From an uncultured Pelagibacteraceae bacterium (GTDB lineage Bacteria; Pseudomonadota; Alphaproteobacteria; Pelagibacterales; Pelagibacteraceae): a stretch of 64,000 nt of DNA. Location: the NCBI GenBank assembly GCA_902620465.1, contig CACNIF010000001.1, positions 305,696 to 369,695 of the forward strand, read 5' to 3'. The notes under the pieces are model-generated. The model did no database searches and had not been told where the DNA came from. It saw only the letters and a list, made by a program, of their open reading frames with translations. A program made the position numbers and the translations under genes. Each line of letters opens with the position of its first letter. The stretch's first letter is position 1. Below, piece by piece: positions 23,526 to 34,404 of the stretch.

Positions 23526-23624
23526 AGTTTAGAGTTTAATTTGAGAGGAAAATTCTATGAGCCCATTAATGCAGTATTGTACTAACATAATTGCATCAGT
23601 TAGGTGCAAATAGAAATTAGGCGC

Positions 23625-24974
23625 ATGAATAATGATTTCCATCAATTTCAAAATTATCAAAAAATTAACGAATATCAATTTATAAATAACATGTTTTTTG
23701 GTGTAAAAAAAAAGGAAACGATCAAAATAGATGACACTAGCAGTAAAGATTTAGAGCTGGTAACTAAAATGAATCAAGAGTTTGCAATGTCTCTTGATTT
23801 AAAAGAAACACTTAATAACTCATTAGAATTAATTATAAAAAGAATTAATGCACAAGCAGCAAATATTTTTTTAATAGATAAAAAAAATCAATCGTTCCAA
23901 TGTATTGCTTCCAAACATCAAGCATATCTTGAGGATTTCGAAATCCCAATTACTCAAGGAGTTATGGGAAAAGCTGCAGTCATGAAAAAATGTATTAGAG
24001 TTGGTGATGTTAGAAAAGATATTAGAGAAATTGCAGAATTTTATTTTGATTTAGATAATAAAACAAATTTTACAACTTATTCAGTTCTATGTTCCCCTTT
24101 AATTGTATCGGATGAATGTATTGGCGTTATTCATTGCTTAAACAAAAAAACTAATAATAAACTTTTTGAAGAGAATGATAGAAAACTTTTAGAAACTTTG
24201 TCTGGTCCGGCTGCATTAGCAATAAACAATGCTAAGATGGCAAAAGATTTAGTCGATAAGAATAGAATGCAAAAAGAAATTGAAATTGTTGGCGAGATAC
24301 AAAAAACTTTGTTGTCGCAAAACAAAAAAGAAAACTTTCCTATAGCAGGAATAAACATCCCAGCAAAAGTTGTATCAGGAGATTTTTATAATTTTTCTGA
24401 TCTAGGTGATGGTAAATTTGGTTTTGGTGTTGCAGATGTATCTGGTAAAGGAATTAAATCTTCCCTTTTAATGTCAAAGGCTTCGAGTCTTTATAGATGT
24501 TTAAGTAAAACAATTTTTTCTGCTGCTGATTTATTAAACTTACTTAATTCTGAAATTTGTGAAACAGCTGCACGTGGAATGTTTGTAACAATGCTTATAG
24601 GTATTTATGACAGTAATAAAAAAGAATTACTACTTGCTAACGCAGGACATGAACCACCACTAATTCATTCTAAAGACGGAAAATTTACAAACTATACTGA
24701 AGCAGGTCCACCTTTAGGAATTATGTCGAAGATTAAATACAAAGAGACAAAAATAAAATTTTCTGAAAGTTCGATGTACGTATTCACTGATGGTATAACA
24801 GAAATGAAAGATCCTGAAGGTAATATGTTAGAGTCTGATGGATTCAAAAACTATATTACAAAGTATCAACAAACACCTAATCACGAAAGATTAAATAAAA
24901 TTGTTGAGGATATAATTAAGTCTGGTCGTATTCAAAAAGACGATCTGACTATTGTAGTTGTAGACGGAGCATAA
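23625..24974 (+). CDS. GAF domain + SpoIIE/RsbU-type PP2C serine phosphatase
   Basis: GAF region (NAQAANIFLIDKKNQSFQCIASKH...), PP2C motifs FGVADVSGKGIKSSLLMSKA, NAGHEPPLI, FTDGITE, DDLTIVVV; ORF track starts at 23604 (GTG), ATG 23625 more likely. Confidence 0.88.
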   Translation: MNNDFHQFQNYQKINEYQFINNMFFGVKKKETIKIDDTSSKDLELVTKMNQEFAMSLDLKETLNNSLELIIKRINAQAANIFLIDKKNQSFQCIASKHQAYLEDFEIPITQGVMGKAAVMKKCIRVGDVRKDIREIAEFYFDLDNKTNFTTYSVLCSPLIVSDECIGVIHCLNKKTNNKLFEENDRKLLETLSGPAALAINNAKMAKDLVDKNRMQKEIEIVGEIQKTLLSQNKKENFPIAGINIPAKVVSGDFYNFSDLGDGKFGFGVADVSGKGIKSSLLMSKASSLYRCLSKTIFSAADLLNLLNSEICETAARGMFVTMLIGIYDSNKKELLLANAGHEPPLIHSKDGKFTNYTEAGPPLGIMSKIKYKETKIKFSESSMYVFTDGITEMKDPEGNMLESDGFKNYITKYQQTPNHERLNKIVEDIIKSGRIQKDDLTIVVVDGA

Positions 24975-24982
24975 TTTTTTTT

Positions 24983-25285
24983 ATGTTTGCGATAAGTAAG
25001 ACAATAGTCTTGTTTGCAATAATTATTTCTGCTCTTTTGTTTTGGGCGACGTCAAATGTTTGTAGATATAATTTTACAATTGAAAAAAAAACAAATTAGC
25101 TTAATATTATTTCAGAAGATATATTCCAAACGCTTCCAATAGCAAAAGTTTATTACTTTAGAGAATTAAATTGTAATAACGTTGATACCATTTAGAATTT
25201 TAACAGAATTATTAATAATTTTAACGCAATTACAGTTTTGATTTATCAAGAGTTAACTACAGATATAAGAGGAGAGCCTAATTAA
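24983..25285 (+). pseudogene. small reading frame interrupted by two in-frame TAG codons
   Basis: Reads MFAISKTIVLFAIIISALLFWATSNVCRYNFTIEKKTN*LNIISEDIFQTLPIAKVYYFRELNCNNVDTI*NFNRIINNFNAITVLIYQELTTDIRGEPN* (TAG at 25097 and 25193, TAA at 25283). Confidence 0.45.
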
Positions 25286-25483: not shown

Positions 25484-25797
25484 ACTCTAACACATAAATT
25501 TAAAACTCTAACACAAAAAAGTTTAAATTTAGCATGATTTTAATTTTTGTTGATTTTATTGACTTTTTTAAAAAAAATTAAAATATAATACTCTAACACA
25601 ATTTAAAATTTATTATTTGTGTTAGAGTTTATTAAAAATTTAAATAAAAAAAAAAGTTAAATAAATATTTTAATTTTTAAAAAATGGCTATTTTACTTAC
25701 TTTTTTAACATTAAGCCCATTTTGAACATATATTTTATAATTTTGTGTTAGACTAAATAATAATTTTGTGTTAGAGATTCGTTAAATTGTGTTAGAG
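25484..25797. repeat. cluster of seven copies of CTCTAACACA / TGTGTTAGAG (one copy ends in C)
   Basis: Forward copies at 25485, 25506, 25591; reverse-complement copies at 25618, 25744 (TGTGTTAGAC), 25767, 25788. Confidence 0.9.
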
Positions 25798-25816: not shown

Positions 25817-28258
25817 ATGAACGATCAAGACGACGAAAAAAAAATTATTGATGAAGATAAGTCTCAGTCTGAATCTGAGAATCAATCTAAAGTTGATGAA
25901 AATAATCAACCTGAAGGTGTAGATAATCAAAAAAATGATCCTATCCTTGAATCAAATCAAAATAATAAGGAAAATAATGATCAAACACAAAATTTAGATA
26001 CATCTAGTGATAAAAAAGATGAAAATAAAATTTTAGATAATCAAAATGATGAAAAAAGTTTAGAATCAAGTCAGAACAACGATCAAGAAACCACCCAACA
26101 ACAAACATCCGAGCCTTCAAGTGAAAAAAAAGATGAAAATAATGGATCCTCGCATGAGGTAATCCATAAGAAAGACGGAAGGTTGCATATTTATATCCGA
26201 CAAGACAAATACAAAGGTGAATTAAAATCAAAAAATTGGGTTGGAAGACTTTATCATGATGGAAAACAAAAAATTTCATCATCAGGAACTCCTAATTTGG
26301 AGGAAGCAATACCAATTTTAGAAAAATGGTTTGATGACGTTGTTGCGGGAAAAGAAAAAGAAAAAGAAATTCAAGAGCTACCTGTTAAAACTGAAGAAAC
26401 ATCTGTTCAACCAGAAACTTCAACTCAAATTGTTAATAAAGAACAAACGAGTCAAACAACTACGTTAACCGAACCTAAAATTGACTCTCCTATTTTAAAT
26501 CAATCACCAGAGGACGAACAAGAAAATAAAAAATCAAAATTTGCTTTTTTAGATAATATAAAAAATATTAAATTTAAAAAGCCAAGCTTCTTAGAAAAAA
26601 GTTCAGTTTCAAAACCATCACTCAAAACTAATGAACTTTCGAAAAAAGTTACTAGTTTTTTTAAATCTAAAATTGGAAAGTCAGCAGTTAAAGGGGAGGA
26701 AATTGTTGGAGTTGAAATTACAAACAAAGAAATAAGATTAGCTCAAGTATCAACTAATAAATCAAATCAATGGGTATTAGATAAATTTTATGCTCACCCA
26801 GTTGACTTACCAGATGATGCAAATGTTTTAGATAATGGAGAAAAATTAGGAGCAGAACTTACAATTGCATTACAAAAATCTAAAATTACAACATTAAATG
26901 CTGCAATTGCTATACCTGTCACAAGTGCAATTATAAGAGTTGTAACAGCACCATTGATGAAAGAAGAGGAATTGCAAAAAGCTATTGAAACTAATTCACT
27001 TTGGGAAAATTTAGTTCAGTTAACTGATAACTTAGATGACTATTCAATTTTCCATCAAGTTATTAATAGGAATGAAAAAGCTAATACAATGGATATTTTA
27101 TTTGTTGCTTCAAAGCTGGCTGATATAAATAATTATACCTCTATAATCAAGCAAAGTAATCTCAACCCAGTTATAATTGATGTAAAATGCTTTGCATTAA
27201 AATCTGCTGTCGACCAAATAAATCAAATCTCAAATAAAACGGATGATGTAAATCTTACTGCGGTTTTAGAATTTGGTTTAGATGAGAATTATTTAATGAT
27301 TTTATATGATAATAACCCAATAATTACTGATATTTTTTTAAGAGGCCAAGATAGAAAAATATTATTAGAGTCACAAGATGTTGAAGAAAAAGAAGCATTA
27401 GTAAGAAGATTTTTAACTCAAGTAAAACAAGCGGTTCAAGATTTTGAAACCAAATATGAGAGAAGAATAAGAAACATAAAAGTAGTCTCAGATTTAAAAA
27501 ATGTTGAGGATTTTTTGTCAAGTTTTAGAAAGGGACTACTAAATGTTGGTTTTAACTTATTTGATCCAATTGATGGATTGTTAATCCCTCAGCAAAATAA
27601 AGAAAAAGTAGATTTAATTAACAGATCATACTTATCATCGGTTGTAGGTCTTGCTTTTAGAAAATTGGATGTATTTGGTTATTATAAATTTGTTACTGCC
27701 GTTAAAAATATAAACTTACTTCCTAACAGAAAAGGCATGATTAAAGAAAAAAAGATGAAAGCCTTTTCAAGTTTTGCTTTCAAAGGTATAGCTGCTTCAG
27801 TAGCAGCAATATATGTAATTCTCTTTGGTTTATCTTTCTGGAACATCCAATCTTACAATAAAAAACTAATTAATTATGATACTGTCCTAGAAACTCATAA
27901 AGCTAAAACATCTGAACAAAAGAAAATTAAAAAAGAGTTAGCTATAATTACAAATACTTTAAAATTAAGTAAAAGTTTAAAATCAAATAAACAGAAGAGT
28001 TATAGGGTTTTAGCTCAAGTTGCTATGAGTGTTCCTAAAAGAATAAAATTTTCATCAGTTGATTACGATGGCAAAAATAAAGTAATTATCAGAGGGCAGG
28101 CTGCTACCGATCAAGACATTTTGAAGTTAATTAATAATTTAGGAACGCAGGAGTTAGTTGTGCAAGCATCACTTGGAAAAATGAATTTCAAAGGTAAGGC
28201 TGGAGACTCTGCAGATATTAAAAAAGATTTTACAGTTTTTGTGGATGTTAAGGGATAA
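25817..28258 (+). CDS. PilM-PilN fusion with long polar N-terminal extension
   Basis: PilM/actin-like region (VGVEITNKEIRLAQVS...) followed by PilN start (NINLLPNRKGMIKEKKMKAFSSF + TM helix + coiled region); ORF track starts at TTG 25811. Confidence 0.85.
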   Translation: MNDQDDEKKIIDEDKSQSESENQSKVDENNQPEGVDNQKNDPILESNQNNKENNDQTQNLDTSSDKKDENKILDNQNDEKSLESSQNNDQETTQQQTSEPSSEKKDENNGSSHEVIHKKDGRLHIYIRQDKYKGELKSKNWVGRLYHDGKQKISSSGTPNLEEAIPILEKWFDDVVAGKEKEKEIQELPVKTEETSVQPETSTQIVNKEQTSQTTTLTEPKIDSPILNQSPEDEQENKKSKFAFLDNIKNIKFKKPSFLEKSSVSKPSLKTNELSKKVTSFFKSKIGKSAVKGEEIVGVEITNKEIRLAQVSTNKSNQWVLDKFYAHPVDLPDDANVLDNGEKLGAELTIALQKSKITTLNAAIAIPVTSAIIRVVTAPLMKEEELQKAIETNSLWENLVQLTDNLDDYSIFHQVINRNEKANTMDILFVASKLADINNYTSIIKQSNLNPVIIDVKCFALKSAVDQINQISNKTDDVNLTAVLEFGLDENYLMILYDNNPIITDIFLRGQDRKILLESQDVEEKEALVRRFLTQVKQAVQDFETKYERRIRNIKVVSDLKNVEDFLSSFRKGLLNVGFNLFDPIDGLLIPQQNKEKVDLINRSYLSSVVGLAFRKLDVFGYYKFVTAVKNINLLPNRKGMIKEKKMKAFSSFAFKGIAASVAAIYVILFGLSFWNIQSYNKKLINYDTVLETHKAKTSEQKKIKKELAIITNTLKLSKSLKSNKQKSYRVLAQVAMSVPKRIKFSSVDYDGKNKVIIRGQAATDQDILKLINNLGTQELVVQASLGKMNFKGKAGDSADIKKDFTVFVDVKG

Positions 28259-28261
28259 TTT

Positions 28262-28963
28262 ATGGATTTAAAAAATATTAATTTAGATTTAAAGAACATC
28301 GATTTAGAAAGTATAAAAGCTAAAATTAAATCGATAGATAAAAAAATTCTAATTAAATTTGGTATTGGATTTTTATCAATTATTATATTCTTAATAATTT
28401 ATTACGCTGTTTTAAGCCCTATCGTTGAAAAGAAAAAAGCTCAGTTAGATAACATGCAGAAAAAACAAGCTGAGATAACAAAGATGAATCAAGACATCAA
28501 ATCTAGTAAAGCTAAAATAAAAAAACTTACTCCTCGATATGAACAATATTCTACTTTATTCCATAGCAAAGCCGAGGTTGAGGGTCTTTACGATACACTA
28601 AGTCAATTCGCAGGGATTAACAACTTAGTCATTTCAAAGATTGAAAAGGGCAAACCAAAGGCCATAACAAAGGCATCAGCTATTGCTTCTACAGAAAAGA
28701 AGAAAAAGAAGAAAAAGAGAAAAAGTAGAAAGAAAGTTGATACTGGTGTTAAAAAAAATATTGCTTATTACAGAATACCTGTAAATTTTCAAATAAAGGG
28801 CAATTTTCTTGGATATATTAAGTTTAAGAGACAAGTGGCCATGTCTCAAAAAATGTTAAATTTTGACAAAGAAACAATTAAAGTGATAAAAGGGGATACA
28901 ACCAGTACGGTAGCTGTAACTGGTGTATTAACAATAGTGGGTTTACCAGATGAATTTTTTTAG
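28262..28963 (+). CDS. pilO: type IV pilus inner-membrane protein PilO
   Basis: TM helix then coiled coil and LYDTLSQFAGINNLVISKI / YYRIPVNFQIKGNFLGYIKFKRQVA; directly after PilN region. Confidence 0.85.
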   Translation: MDLKNINLDLKNIDLESIKAKIKSIDKKILIKFGIGFLSIIIFLIIYYAVLSPIVEKKKAQLDNMQKKQAEITKMNQDIKSSKAKIKKLTPRYEQYSTLFHSKAEVEGLYDTLSQFAGINNLVISKIEKGKPKAITKASAIASTEKKKKKKKRKSRKKVDTGVKKNIAYYRIPVNFQIKGNFLGYIKFKRQVAMSQKMLNFDKETIKVIKGDTTSTVAVTGVLTIVGLPDEFF

Positions 28964-29456
28964 GCTCATATTTTTGGTTATAATAGTTATCACTTTCTCA
29001 CAGAAAGTAATGTCAGATAGTCACGACCAAAACATTGTTGAAAAGGCAAAAGAAATTAATAAACAAGTAAAAGAGAAGCAAGCAGCACAACAAGAGAACA
29101 TTAAAAAAGAAACAGACCAAATTGTTGTAAAAGAAGAACCGTTACCTTTAAATGATCCATTTGCTGGAGATGCGTCAACATCTAGTGATATAGTTACAGA
29201 AGTAACACCTACATCCAGTGCAGTAAAATTAAGATCTTATAAACTTGTTGGATCATTTTCCGCTCAAGATAATAGTTTCATTACTTTAGTTGATGACAAT
29301 GGTGAATTTATGACAGTAGAATTATTTGAAGAAGTCTTAAGTGGTGTGAAACTTGTTGACGTTAGTATAAAAAGAGCAGTTTTTGAAAAAGCTGACGATA
29401 ACCAGTACATAATTATGAATTTTAAAAATCAAATAAAAGAGGCAAATGAATTTTAA
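28950..29456 (+). CDS. pilP: PilP-like pilotin/lipoprotein-position protein
   Basis: Synteny between pilO and pilQ; PLNDPF, SYKLVGSFSAQDNSFITLVDDNGEFMTV. Confidence 0.75.
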   Translation: MNFFRLIFLVIIVITFSQKVMSDSHDQNIVEKAKEINKQVKEKQAAQQENIKKETDQIVVKEEPLPLNDPFAGDASTSSDIVTEVTPTSSAVKLRSYKLVGSFSAQDNSFITLVDDNGEFMTVELFEEVLSGVKLVDVSIKRAVFEKADDNQYIIMNFKNQIKEANEF

Positions 29457-30984
29457 AAATACCAAACTTTTTATTTTATTTAGTTTTTTTTCAGCTTTGC
29501 TTTTAACTGGTTGTGCCACTGACGGTAAATTTGGAACAAAAAAATTTAAACATAACACTCCTTTAATAAAAGAAGACATAAAGAAGAAAGGTAAAATAGA
29601 AGTTGATAAGACCGCAAAGATGGGGCCAAAACCAGCTGAGGCTGATGTAATTAAACTTGGTAAAAGAAAACAAATTTCTTCACAGAAATCAAGAAACTAT
29701 TTGTTAATTGGTGAGGAATATGAATTATTAAAGCAAAATATTTCATTTAATTTTAAAAATCTAGATTATAGAACAGCAATAGAATTAATGGCAAAAGCAG
29801 GTGAGATAAATATTCTCATTGGTGATGAAGTTGCCGGCTCAGTTACAGCACAACTGATTGATATTCCATGGGATAAAGCTTTTAATGCACTCTTAGATCT
29901 AAAAAACTATGCAGCTGACTTTGATGTTCAAAGTAATTTAATAAGAGTTCACTCTCCATCAAATTTGACTCAACAAGAATCTACAAAATCAGCTAGAGCT
30001 TCAGCTGTAAGGAAAAAAGTTGAACTAGAGGACTCTGTAGAGCCATTAATTTCAGAAATATTCAGACTTTATTATATAAGCCCTGCTGAGGCCAAAGCTA
30101 CTTTAGATGAGTTATTTAAAGCAGCAGATGGAGGAATTTCTTTAGTTCAAATTACTGAAGAAAAAACTACAAGATCGATTATTGCAAGAGGAAAAGAAAA
30201 AGATTTAGACGTAGTTGATAAAATAATTAAAGAAATTGATGTTAGAACAAGACAAGTCTTAATTGAAGCTTTTATTGTTGAGGCAAATTCAGATTTCGAA
30301 AGAGCATTAGGTACTGCTCTTGGTGGATACTATAGAAGACAGGGTGAGATAATAGGTGGTGTTCAAGCAGGATCATCAGGAGATGCAGATATAGGTGCAG
30401 CTACTGCTGTTATAGGTTCTACTACTGACTCCATAACAAATTTTGGAGCAGCTGGTAAGACAAGTGGTATTGGAATATTAAAGAAGACAGGATCTGCAGT
30501 TTTAAAGACCGAAATAACTGCACTAGAGTCTCAGGGGATGGGAAAAACTATATCTAATCCAAAAATATTTACTTTAGATAACCAGGTCGCAACTATCACA
30601 CAAGGTGAAGAAATACCTTACGCTTCTAGTTCAGCAGAGGGTTCAGATACCTCCTTTAAGGAAGCAGCATTAAAAATGACTGTTACACCAAGTATTATTG
30701 GAGATGGAAATGTTCTTTTGGATATCCAAGTTAATAATGATACGCCTAATAGATCTAATCCAGGAGATCCTGCGATCAATAAAATGGAAATTAGCACAAA
30801 ATTATTAATAGCTGATGGCGATATTGTAGTTATAGGTGGTATTAAAAAGAATGCTTTAACTAACAGCAAACAACAAACTCCTGGGGTAGGAGACGTTCCA
30901 GTTGTTGGAAATTTATTTAAAGGTAAATCAAACACTGATAACATGGATGAATTATTAGTGTTTATCGCACCAAGGATTTTATAG
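29446..30984 (+). CDS. pilQ: type IV pilus secretin
   Basis: Lipobox-like LLLTGCAT; NFKNLDYRTAIELMAKAGEINILIGDEV; VLIEAFIVEANSDFERALG; GEEIPYASSSAEGSDTSFKEAALKMTVTPSI; secretin C-terminus. Confidence 0.93.
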   Translation: MNFKNTKLFILFSFFSALLLTGCATDGKFGTKKFKHNTPLIKEDIKKKGKIEVDKTAKMGPKPAEADVIKLGKRKQISSQKSRNYLLIGEEYELLKQNISFNFKNLDYRTAIELMAKAGEINILIGDEVAGSVTAQLIDIPWDKAFNALLDLKNYAADFDVQSNLIRVHSPSNLTQQESTKSARASAVRKKVELEDSVEPLISEIFRLYYISPAEAKATLDELFKAADGGISLVQITEEKTTRSIIARGKEKDLDVVDKIIKEIDVRTRQVLIEAFIVEANSDFERALGTALGGYYRRQGEIIGGVQAGSSGDADIGAATAVIGSTTDSITNFGAAGKTSGIGILKKTGSAVLKTEITALESQGMGKTISNPKIFTLDNQVATITQGEEIPYASSSAEGSDTSFKEAALKMTVTPSIIGDGNVLLDIQVNNDTPNRSNPGDPAINKMEISTKLLIADGDIVVIGGIKKNALTNSKQQTPGVGDVPVVGNLFKGKSNTDNMDELLVFIAPRIL

Positions 30985-32736
30985 ATGCTTAAAATTAGCA
31001 GAGAAAGTGAAATTAATTTGATCAATGTGCTAATTGATAACGATATTATTTCTGGAAAAGATTTAATTAACATTAAAAAGATTAGCACTGAGGGAAATAA
31101 ATCTCAGATAGATGCAGTATTTGAACTCAAGCTCACTGATGAAAATAAAATTTTAGATGTTTTGGTAAAAGAACAAAGTCTTGAAATTGTAGATCTTTCT
31201 AAAATTCAAATAAGCGATGAAATTAAAAGTGTGCTACCCTCAAATTACATAAACGTAAATTTTGTAGCGCCCTTTAAGGTTGAGGGTAAAACTCTTCACA
31301 TTGCGATTTCAGATAGTTCAAAGCTTGGTCTTATGAGAAATTTGAAAGCAATTACAAAAAAAAATATAGAGCTACACGCTGCAAAAGTTTCTCAAATTTC
31401 AGAGTTTATTGAAAAACTTCAATCAGAAAGTGGAGACGTTACAACTGCAACAATTAGACAAGAGAATAAAGAGAAAACAAAAACCTTTGACTCTGATTTA
31501 GGTGAGGCGGGTGAAGTTTTAGAAAAAGCTCCCGAAGAAGATATAGAAGCAATCGAAAACGAGTCGGAAGTAATAAAATTTAGTACAGCAGTTGTGGCAG
31601 AGGCTATTAAATCAGGTGTCAGTGATATTCATATCGAACCGTACAGATTTAGCTCAAGAGTTAGATACAGATTAGACGGAATGCTCCAAGAGCAGGAACA
31701 ATATAAAAAATTTCTTCATGATAATTATGGAGCGGTTGTTACAAGATTTAAAATAATGGGTAAATTAGATATTGCTGAAAGAAGATTACCTCAAGATGGA
31801 GCAATAAATTTTAAGATAGATGGTAAAGTTGTTGATTTACGATTATCGATTTTACCAACCGCTAATAATGAGAGAATAGTAATGCGGGTTTTAAATAAAG
31901 ATGCTGGTGACATAACTTTAGAGCAATTAAACTTTGAAGATGTTGATTTACAGAATTTAAGAAAAGCAATTCATGGAACTCAAGGTTTAATACTTGTAAC
32001 TGGACCAACAGGATCTGGTAAATCAACAACTCTTTATAGTATTTTAAAAGAGGTGAGTAAGCCTCACTTAAATATTCTAACAGCCGAGGATCCTGTTGAA
32101 TATGAATTAGATGGTGTAGGACAAGTTCAGATAAAAGATGACATTGGATTAAGTTTTGCTGCTGCTTTGAGATCTTTTTTAAGACAAGACCCGGAAATAA
32201 TACTTGTCGGGGAGATGAGAGATAAAGAAACAGTTGATATCGGACTGAAGGCTGCACTCACTGGTCACTTAGTATTTAGTACTTTGCACACGAATGACGC
32301 TCCAAGCACTATAACTAGATTACAAAACATGGGCACTCCTGATTATTTAATAAGTGCTGCTTGCCAATTGGTTTTAGCACAAAGACTAGCAAGAAGGACC
32401 TGCAAAGATTGTAGAGTTCCAGATGACGATGTTAATCCAAAAGTTTTGCAAGACCTAGGCTTTACAGCAGAATTGGCTTCAAGAGTAAAAGCTCTCAAAG
32501 GCAAAGGTTGTCCTAAATGTAAAGACACTGGTTATAAAGGAAGACAAGGTCTATACGAAATTTTGGTTGTCTCAAAACCAGTTAAAGAGGCAATACTTAG
32601 AAAAGCAACAACACCTGAGCTAAGAGAAATTGCAGTTAAAGAGGGCTTTCAAACCATGCAAGATATGGGAAGAAGACTAATTGCTAATGGTGAGCTTAAT
32701 TTTAGGGAATATGAGCGGGTTTTAACTACCTCATAA
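30985..32736 (+). CDS. pilB: type IV pilus assembly ATPase
   Basis: SDIHIEPY; GPTGSGKSTTLYSIL; RSFLRQDPEIILVGEMRDKETVDIGLKAALTGHLVFSTLHTNDAPSTITRL; zinc motif CKDC...CPKC. Confidence 0.95.
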   Translation: MLKISRESEINLINVLIDNDIISGKDLINIKKISTEGNKSQIDAVFELKLTDENKILDVLVKEQSLEIVDLSKIQISDEIKSVLPSNYINVNFVAPFKVEGKTLHIAISDSSKLGLMRNLKAITKKNIELHAAKVSQISEFIEKLQSESGDVTTATIRQENKEKTKTFDSDLGEAGEVLEKAPEEDIEAIENESEVIKFSTAVVAEAIKSGVSDIHIEPYRFSSRVRYRLDGMLQEQEQYKKFLHDNYGAVVTRFKIMGKLDIAERRLPQDGAINFKIDGKVVDLRLSILPTANNERIVMRVLNKDAGDITLEQLNFEDVDLQNLRKAIHGTQGLILVTGPTGSGKSTTLYSILKEVSKPHLNILTAEDPVEYELDGVGQVQIKDDIGLSFAAALRSFLRQDPEIILVGEMRDKETVDIGLKAALTGHLVFSTLHTNDAPSTITRLQNMGTPDYLISAACQLVLAQRLARRTCKDCRVPDDDVNPKVLQDLGFTAELASRVKALKGKGCPKCKDTGYKGRQGLYEILVVSKPVKEAILRKATTPELREIAVKEGFQTMQDMGRRLIANGELNFREYERVLTTS

Positions 32737-32758
32737 TTATTATATAGTCTAAAGAGTC

Positions 32759-33994
32759 ATGGAAGCATTTACTTATAAAGGCATTGCAGATGGTAAATAC
32801 GTTGAGGGCGATATTGAGGCTATCAATCAAGAGGAAGCATCTCATAAGCTTAAAGAGCAAAAAATTATTATTACTAATTTAATAAGATCAAAAAAGAAAA
32901 AAGTAGAAACCAAAGCTAAAGCAAAAGGTAAAGGCTTTTCTTTTCGTAAACCAAAAGTCAAAGTGGAAGATGTCTTAATTTTTTCTAAGCAATTTGCAAC
33001 AATGGTTAAAGCGGGCTTACCAATATTAGAGGTTTTAGCCATGTTGAGAGATCAGTTGGAGAGTCCAGCTATTAAAGAAGTAATCGAAGATATAAGGAAA
33101 AGCCTAGAGGGAGGGGTAACACTTTCTAAATGTTTTGAAAAATATCCTCAATATTTTGATAACGTTTATTGTAATTTGATAAAAGCTGGAGAAGCCAGTG
33201 GTAAGTTGGATGTATTCTTAATGAAAATTGTAGACGCTCTTGAAAAAAAAGAAAAGATAAAAAAGAAAATAAAATCTGCACTCATGTATCCTGCTATAAT
33301 GTTTTCTGTAGCAATAACTGTTAGTGCATTTATGTTAATCAAAGTTGTTCCTGTTTTTGCAAAAATGTATGATGGAATGGGTTTAGATTTACCAAAACCA
33401 ACAGCAGTTATCATGTCAATGAGTGATTTTTTGAGAGGAACTGGAGGAATGGTTTTATTAATAAGTTTAATTTCCTTTTTTGTAGCATTTAAATATTTAA
33501 CAGCTAAAAATGAAAAGATTAAGTATAGATGGCACAAACAAGTTTTAAAACTACCAGTCTTTGGTGATTTAATATTAAAATCATTGCTTGCAAGAATTTC
33601 CTTAATAATGGGAAACTTGAGTGCAGCCGGAGTAAATTTATTGGAAAGTATAGAGATTGCAAAATCAGTTAGCAGCAATGTGGTTGTATCAGAGGCTTTA
33701 GAAAATGTTAAAAAAGGAGTTTTTTCTGGAGATACTTTGACAAAATTATTTTTAAAAGAACCACTCTTCCCCCCAACTTTTAGTCAATTAATTTCTGTGG
33801 GTGAGCAAACGGGGCAGTTAGATGAAATGTTTGGCTCTGTTGCAATGTATTATGAAGAAGAATTCGATGGAGCTGTCGATAATATGTCAAGTTTGATTGA
33901 ACCGATAATGATTGTTTTTATGGGAGTTATGATCGGTGGATTAATGATTGCGATGTATTCACCAATCTTTAACGTTGGAGCGTTAATAGGTTAA
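32759..33994 (+). CDS. pilC: type IV pilus inner-membrane platform protein
   Basis: FSKQFATMVKAGLPILEVLAML; SLIEPIMIVFMGVMIGGLMIAMYSPIF. Confidence 0.95.
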   Translation: MEAFTYKGIADGKYVEGDIEAINQEEASHKLKEQKIIITNLIRSKKKKVETKAKAKGKGFSFRKPKVKVEDVLIFSKQFATMVKAGLPILEVLAMLRDQLESPAIKEVIEDIRKSLEGGVTLSKCFEKYPQYFDNVYCNLIKAGEASGKLDVFLMKIVDALEKKEKIKKKIKSALMYPAIMFSVAITVSAFMLIKVVPVFAKMYDGMGLDLPKPTAVIMSMSDFLRGTGGMVLLISLISFFVAFKYLTAKNEKIKYRWHKQVLKLPVFGDLILKSLLARISLIMGNLSAAGVNLLESIEIAKSVSSNVVVSEALENVKKGVFSGDTLTKLFLKEPLFPPTFSQLISVGEQTGQLDEMFGSVAMYYEEEFDGAVDNMSSLIEPIMIVFMGVMIGGLMIAMYSPIFNVGALIG

Positions 33995-34404
33995 ATTTTT
34001 TTAGTAAGTACCAAATGGTTTACCCATTCTTTTTGGTCTTTTTTAAAAACTGCTGCATCCATGATTTGCTTTATAAAAAAAGTCCCAAGACCCCCTGGTT
34101 TAATATCATCTAATTTTCTATGTTGAATATTTTCTGGTATTACTGCTTTGCCTTTATCAAAAAAACCGATCTCTAAATCACTATTTTTAAGTGAGATTTT
34201 AATTTCCATTCTATCTGATGTTTCTGCAATATCTTTATAGGCATGCTTAACGATATTTTGTGCTGCCTCAGCAATTGCTAATACAAGTTCATCTTTTTGA
34301 TCTTGTGGTAAATTAATTTTTTCAAATACTTCTCTAGAGAAAGTTCTTACTTCTTTTAAACTAGCCGTACTTACAAGAAAATCTTTAGACTCTTCTATAT
34401 TCAT
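33991..34404 (-). CDS. RsbW-like anti-sigma-factor serine kinase (HATPase)
   Basis: ELVLAIAEAAQNIVKHAY N-box; DKGKAVIP; KPGGLGTFFIKQIMD. Confidence 0.9.
   Translation of the reverse strand: MNIEESKDFLVSTASLKEVRTFSREVFEKINLPQDQKDELVLAIAEAAQNIVKHAYKDIAETSDRMEIKISLKNSDLEIGFFDKGKAVIPENIQHRKLDDIKPGGLGTFFIKQIMDAAVFKKDQKEWVNHLVLTKKI

Follow-up and report, generated by a model that had tools for sequence, protein, structure and literature searches.

Type IV pilus operons are usually described under dedicated regulators, such as PilS/PilR or AlgR. Membrane-bound one-component regulators of the ToxR/CadC type consist of a cytoplasmic DNA-binding domain, a membrane segment and a periplasmic part, and the LytTR regulators (AgrA, AlgR and ComE) use direct repeats of about 10 bp at a spacing of 21–22 bp with a GTTA core. 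In integrases that possess an arm-binding domain, this domain is located at the N-terminus. It has been reported that an arm-type site of the KplE1 integrase IntS overlaps the −10 element and that this integrase is negatively autoregulated (PMC2951348). For the ALOG regulators of plants, it has been proposed that the transcription-factor domain was derived from the N-terminal DNA-binding domain of a tyrosine recombinase (PMC3537659).

The locus described here lies within the window (i.e., the whole stretch of 64,000 nucleotides that was analysed) and combines features of these systems. As with KplE1 IntS (PMC2951348), where short repeated sites for the integrase N-terminal domain overlap its own promoter, a homologous domain is accompanied by similar sites on a predicted promoter; in contrast to IntS, the domain is fused to the pilus protein PilM without a recombinase catalytic domain, and the array of sites is larger and phased. 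PilMN (the PilM–PilN fusion protein) is similar to ToxR/CadC in that a cytoplasmic DNA-binding domain, a single membrane segment and a periplasmic portion are predicted for it and it is proposed to regulate a nearby operon, but its domain is of the integrase type rather than a winged helix, and PilMN also belongs to the structural components of the pilus machine. The ALOG proteins differ in that they are plant proteins whose domain is traced to DIRS1-like retroposons and is of the XerC/D N-terminal type, whereas the PilMN domain corresponds to an additional arm-binding domain preceding that core. No report of a PilM with DNA binding or an integrase fusion was found in the open-access literature searched, and such an absence is no proof of novelty. 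On the evidence given below, the array probably represents binding sites for the integrase-type domain of PilMN; this domain was probably captured together with its sites, and PilMN would autoregulate the pil operon.

An earlier note, made from the sequence alone, had described seven copies of a 10-mer in noncoding DNA upstream of pilMN. All seven are present at the positions and on the strands it gave (Table 1), six of them exact copies of TGTGTTAGAG and one a single-mismatch variant, TGTGTTAGAC, and the last copy does precede the pilMN start codon (ATG at 25817) by the short distance claimed. The intergenic region that holds them has a G+C content of 19% versus 31% for the window. The opinion that such an array is unlikely by chance was borne out: only 0.06 exact matches are expected in 64 kb, and none of 100 shuffles reached six. 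Moreover, the count over the 968,844-bp assembly (77.9% complete) returned the six array copies as the only exact matches, so that the 10-mer is not widespread, and a genome-wide repeat or uptake-type sequence was ruled out in the absence of further exact copies. The 12-bp stem with a 15-nt loop at 25590–25628 is also real and corresponds to the −/+ pair formed by sites 3 and 4, a pair kept in many relatives at 25–27 or 35–36 bp; the other hairpin pointed out earlier, TAAATTTAAA/TTTAAATTTA, exists in the window but is not kept in the other loci examined.

Table 1. Coordinates of the repeat array, the predicted promoter and the pil genes in the window
Feature	Position	Strand	Remarks
Array site 1	25485..25494	-	TGTGTTAGAG; position conserved in relatives
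Array site 2	25506..25515	-	TGTGTTAGAG; 21 bp from site 1
Array site 3	25591..25600	-	TGTGTTAGAG; 85 bp from site 2
Array site 4	25618..25627	+	TGTGTTAGAG; inverted relative to site 3
Predicted pilMN promoter	25705..25741	+	TTAACA-18-TATATT (25705-25734), alternative -10 TATAAT (25736-25741); consensus only
Palindrome-like GCCCATTTTGAAC	25715..25727	.	At the -35 position; conserved in an alignment of 34 distinct relatives
Array site 5	25744..25753	+	Variant TGTGTTAGAC, immediately 3' of the predicted -10
Array site 6	25767..25776	+	TGTGTTAGAG
Array site 7	25788..25797	+	TGTGTTAGAG; ~20 bp 5' of the pilMN ATG
pilMN fusion	25817..28258	+	813 aa
Integrase-type N-terminal domain in PilMN	26153..26350	+	~residues 113-178, HEVIHKKDGRLHIYIRQDKYKGELKSKNWVGRLYHDGKQKISSSGTPNLEEAIPILEKWFDDVVAG; ~65 residues
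Rest of apparent operon	28262..33994	+	pilO-like, pilP position (no Pfam match), pilQ secretin, pilB ATPase, pilC

The description of the array held, and what it missed is the key link, namely the extra N-terminal domain of the adjacent PilMN. Neither Pfam nor NCBIfam contains a model that matches this domain, and in PHROGs it matches unnamed families only weakly. The same domain (57–66% identical) forms the N-terminus of tyrosine-recombinase integrases of 418–425 aa in two relatives (G107 and G242), and the PilM-fused copies share about 50–60% identity with residues ~5–75 of the integrase at locus L082 (E ~1e-20). The integrases that carry it match PF00589 Phage_integrase (E 1.3e-7) and have an XerD-like core from near residue 85. 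Outside the order, the domain matches the N-terminus of a tyrosine recombinase in the same class (hhalign 94.6%, E 7e-8), and relatives of that recombinase on alphaproteobacterial plasmids are annotated as site-specific integrases. That is to say, it is an integrase N-terminal domain by homology to bona fide integrases and, judged from its place in the sequence, corresponds by position to the integrase arm-binding domain. PilMN itself contains no recombinase domain, its matches being to PilM and PilN only. The AlphaFold2 models of the domain (run without an alignment) consist of strands followed by a helix, with a pLDDT of only 56–58; no significant structural match in the PDB was obtained for the first model, and no convincing sequence relative was found among the PDB entries searched. 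Within the order, only two such integrases came to light, and they are closely related to each other; the phage records searched held no integrase relative, and the collection searched held no related phage DNA. A second copy of the domain was not found in the incomplete genome of the window, where it is seen once.

Each of the two integrase genes is preceded by the 5′ half of a tRNA-Leu gene. At L082, the ~122 bp between this half and int contain TTGTGTAAGAG, TAGTGTAAGAG and TTGTGTTATAC, the last of which overlaps a possible −10 of int (TATACT), and the corresponding interval at L083 contains TTGTGTAAGAC and TTATGTAAGAG. Sites of the TGTGTAAGAG type at these loci are one mismatch away from the pil motif. 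Within two mismatches of TTGTGTTAGAG there are three sites at L082 and two at L083 versus ~0.1 expected (shuffle p 0.0002 and 0.0024, respectively), and the tandem copies are 11 bp apart. More copies occur beyond int, near a second, intact tRNA-Leu, and at L083 these include ATGTGTTAGAC, the pil variant. We infer that these repeats are the arm sites of the two integrases. The loci themselves are small islands with two recombinases, in which the integrase behind the half tRNA-Leu is followed by a different, intact tRNA-Leu(CAA) and a serine recombinase.

The arrangement is conserved in relatives, a test to which the earlier note had exposed its own proposal and which went in its favour. A PilMN search of 60 relatives yielded 17 further homologues: the seven at 71–74% identity have 5–9 sites upstream of the gene, and the eight at 66–67%, together with two more distant ones, have none. 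Among 61 genomes, the 10-mer is clustered in eight, in each case upstream of pilMN and nowhere else, all other copies being scattered singles, and the domain is present in exactly these eight, chance-level matches aside. The open frame of PilMN is 755–840 aa long in the array carriers versus 572–596 aa in the others, and among the carriers the domain is 81–88% identical versus 71–74% for the PilMN core. In the 398 genomes of the order, 66 have the domain and site pairs, three the domain only, three pairs only and 326 neither; put differently, site pairs lie upstream of the PilM fusion in 66 of the 69 domain-encoding genomes, and pairs occur in 3 of the 329 outside this set (Fisher p ~1e-67, a value that treats genomes as independent, which they are not). 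Two of the three domain-only cases seem to be cut off where their contigs stop, and four single sites, spaced apart, are present in the third. Weak matches to the domain at L092 and L093 looked unrelated. The three genomes with pairs only (G301, G411 and G362) were rejected as arrays without the domain, their site pairs lying inside coding sequence, either a 4Fe-4S ferredoxin-like frame or a repetitive frame. In G411 and G301 (L147 and L148), the frame is that of a Pro/Glu-rich, repeat-bearing membrane protein, with TGTGTTAGA repeats by coding chance. Outside the order, the spread was sampled in 387 genomes of the class, plus plasmids and phages.

A capture event would account for this distribution. 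PilMN relatives without the domain have a short upstream intergenic region with no TGTGTTA-like site; where a pilT-like gene lies divergently, the gap to it is short and free of sites in domain-free relatives, and in the genera with the domain it is wider and filled by the array. In these divergent-pilT genera, PilM resembles the integrase in its start, the domain being preceded by a few residues. The 5′ region of an integrase gene (arm-type sites, promoter and N-terminal domain) was probably captured in front of pilM; a simple account adds a later joint loss of the domain and the array in one clade, although two gains are also possible. The earlier idea of a recombination or attachment sequence fits this likely origin, since the nearest similar sites flank a tyrosine integrase with the same N-terminal domain, but nothing suggests that recombination takes place at the pil array itself.

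The same distribution bears on a different explanation, in which a separate regulator, encoded at another locus, would use the array as its operator, PilMN would employ its domain for some other purpose, and domain and array would occur together through common descent of the locus. On the PilM tree, as few as two changes of state suffice, so that independent co-changes of the domain and the array (i.e., gains or losses) are few, and the other conserved elements of the promoter described below probably bind other proteins, both of which favour this explanation. On the other side, the pairing is kept in divergent genera, which retain sites in spite of other array layouts and a domain far less similar to that of the window, and elsewhere the same domain is an integrase N-terminus beside near-identical sites. 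A known candidate reader is missing as well: a LytTR response regulator was first suspected because of the 21–22 bp repeat spacing, which the pil array shares with LytTR sites along with the ~10-bp repeats and the GTTA core, but no LytTR protein was found in 61 relatives, incomplete genomes included, and this candidate was rejected. A separate regulator is considered unlikely.

In addition to its conservation, the array has a regular geometry. The motif extends to TTGTGTTAGA(G) in 358 distinct site contexts containing TGTGTTAGA, of which 344 have T as the preceding base, the inner nine bases being fixed by the search itself. Neighbours on the same strand are mostly 20–23, 84–88, 115–119, 125–130, 136–140 or 148–153 bp apart, and the long ones among these spacings, measured in 17 representatives, agree with 10.7 bp per turn (p ≤ 0.0002, also when only unique values are counted). 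Between genera, the orientation and layout of the array vary and the motif and phasing stay constant, which is the behaviour expected of DNA sites lined up on a single helical face. The C of the TGTGTTAGAC variant is retained in most close relatives at the copy just 3′ of the −10-like element. The largest array observed, at L091 (G066), has about 13 sites in two blocks upstream of pilMN, including the variant TGTGTGAGAG, and looks duplicated or expanded.

The TTAACA-18-TATATT element is the strongest promoter-like match in the region, such matches being overall near chance (11 vs 7.6). With this promoter, which lies downstream of sites 1–4, transcription is predicted to start in or beside site 5. 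Besides the palindrome at the −35 position, the conserved elements of the region, at 25548–25570 and 25687–25706, include a TTGATTTTAYTKACTTTTTT element, which occurs in either orientation in relatives. The palindrome and the TTGATTTTAYTKACTTTTTT element are probably sites for other regulators, and further regulators are implied by such conserved promoter elements. For the present role of the array, the multi-site operator once suggested is the best fit, given conserved, helically phased sites on both strands of a conserved promoter.

PilMN consists, in order, of an acidic, Asn/Gln-rich tail (Asp/Glu 28%, Asn/Gln 30%), the integrase-type domain, a linker, PilM, a hydrophobic segment and PilN. 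It matches PilM_2 (E 3e-17), TIGR01175 (E 8e-22, below the cut-off) and PilN (E 4e-4, just below the cut-off), and this homology within a pil gene cluster identifies it as type IV pilus PilM/PilN. The only strong hydrophobic segment lies near residue 657, between PilM and PilN, so PilMN is probably anchored in the membrane, a flexible tether in the cytoplasm carrying the domain, followed by PilM, the membrane segment and a periplasmic PilN. The domain would reach the DNA from the membrane on this disordered tether, and several PilMN molecules may bind sites on one DNA face (~10.7 bp per turn). Three bound sites would lie over or just after the predicted start, with possible looping to the upstream group via the phased distal sites. 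These three positions make repression or road-blocking the likeliest effect; repression is nonetheless a guess at the sign of regulation, and activation or tethering is possible. The pil operon would then be autoregulated, most likely by repression while PilMN is not engaged in pilus machines; a feedback loop of this kind, with pil transcription repressed by unassembled PilMN, is plausible. The fuller proposal, that a structural component of the pilus machine is a membrane-anchored, sequence-specific DNA-binding protein which senses assembly and sets the expression of its own operon through an integrase-derived domain and its sites, is given even chances. An assembly protein with its own DNA-binding domain, apparently beside its own operator array, would link assembly and expression within a single polypeptide. 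In addition, bacteria would here provide a case in which the DNA-binding domain of an integrase entered host regulation jointly with its sites, the domain–site pairing being preserved across many species and several genera.

The same protein architecture could serve another purpose: the sites may hold the pilus machine at the chromosome, or anchor the locus at the membrane, with no transcriptional role. This would suit a PilMN that is predicted to be membrane-anchored with its domain on a long flexible linker, seven sites exceed the needs of a simple operator, and the genome has its single cluster of sites at the pil locus. Yet the sites cover the predicted transcription start and the gene leader, where one of them keeps its variant base, which suggests a promoter role, and in those genera whose pilT-like gene is divergent, the array occupies the intergenic region that the two genes share; such tethering is rated slightly below a separate regulator. 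It is very improbable that the region acts as RNA, with the inverted copies forming hairpins in an sRNA or a leader. The + strand of the array does fold much better than shuffles (z −6.1), but this is because the copies are inverted, and in L081 and L086 all copies have one orientation and cannot pair. Furthermore, the spacing follows the DNA helical repeat, the promoter position leaves sites 1–4 upstream of the predicted transcript, and the array region has no match among the structured RNAs of Rfam up to E 1, all of which spoke against the sRNA with repeated loops put forward in the earlier note. An active or recent recombination or attachment site, such as one used by an integrase today, is the least credible explanation, since the resemblance to the sites at the integrase attachment region and the presence of both an integrase and the array in G107 are outweighed by the lack of a catalytic domain and an att core at the locus, of any domain-bearing integrase found in the incomplete genome of the window or in nearly all array carriers, and of a tRNA half-site or element boundary in the array sequences examined.

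The pil cluster is flanked by a GAF-SpoIIE phosphatase (23604–24974) and an RsbW-like anti-sigma kinase (33991–34404, read from its translation), a pair that hints at partner-switching control near the pilus genes. To the left of the array, a degraded reading frame at 24982–25284 looks like a pseudogene, and in the relative L013 the corresponding end still belongs to an open frame (...KVYYYKELNCNNVD...IYQELSTDIKGDPN).
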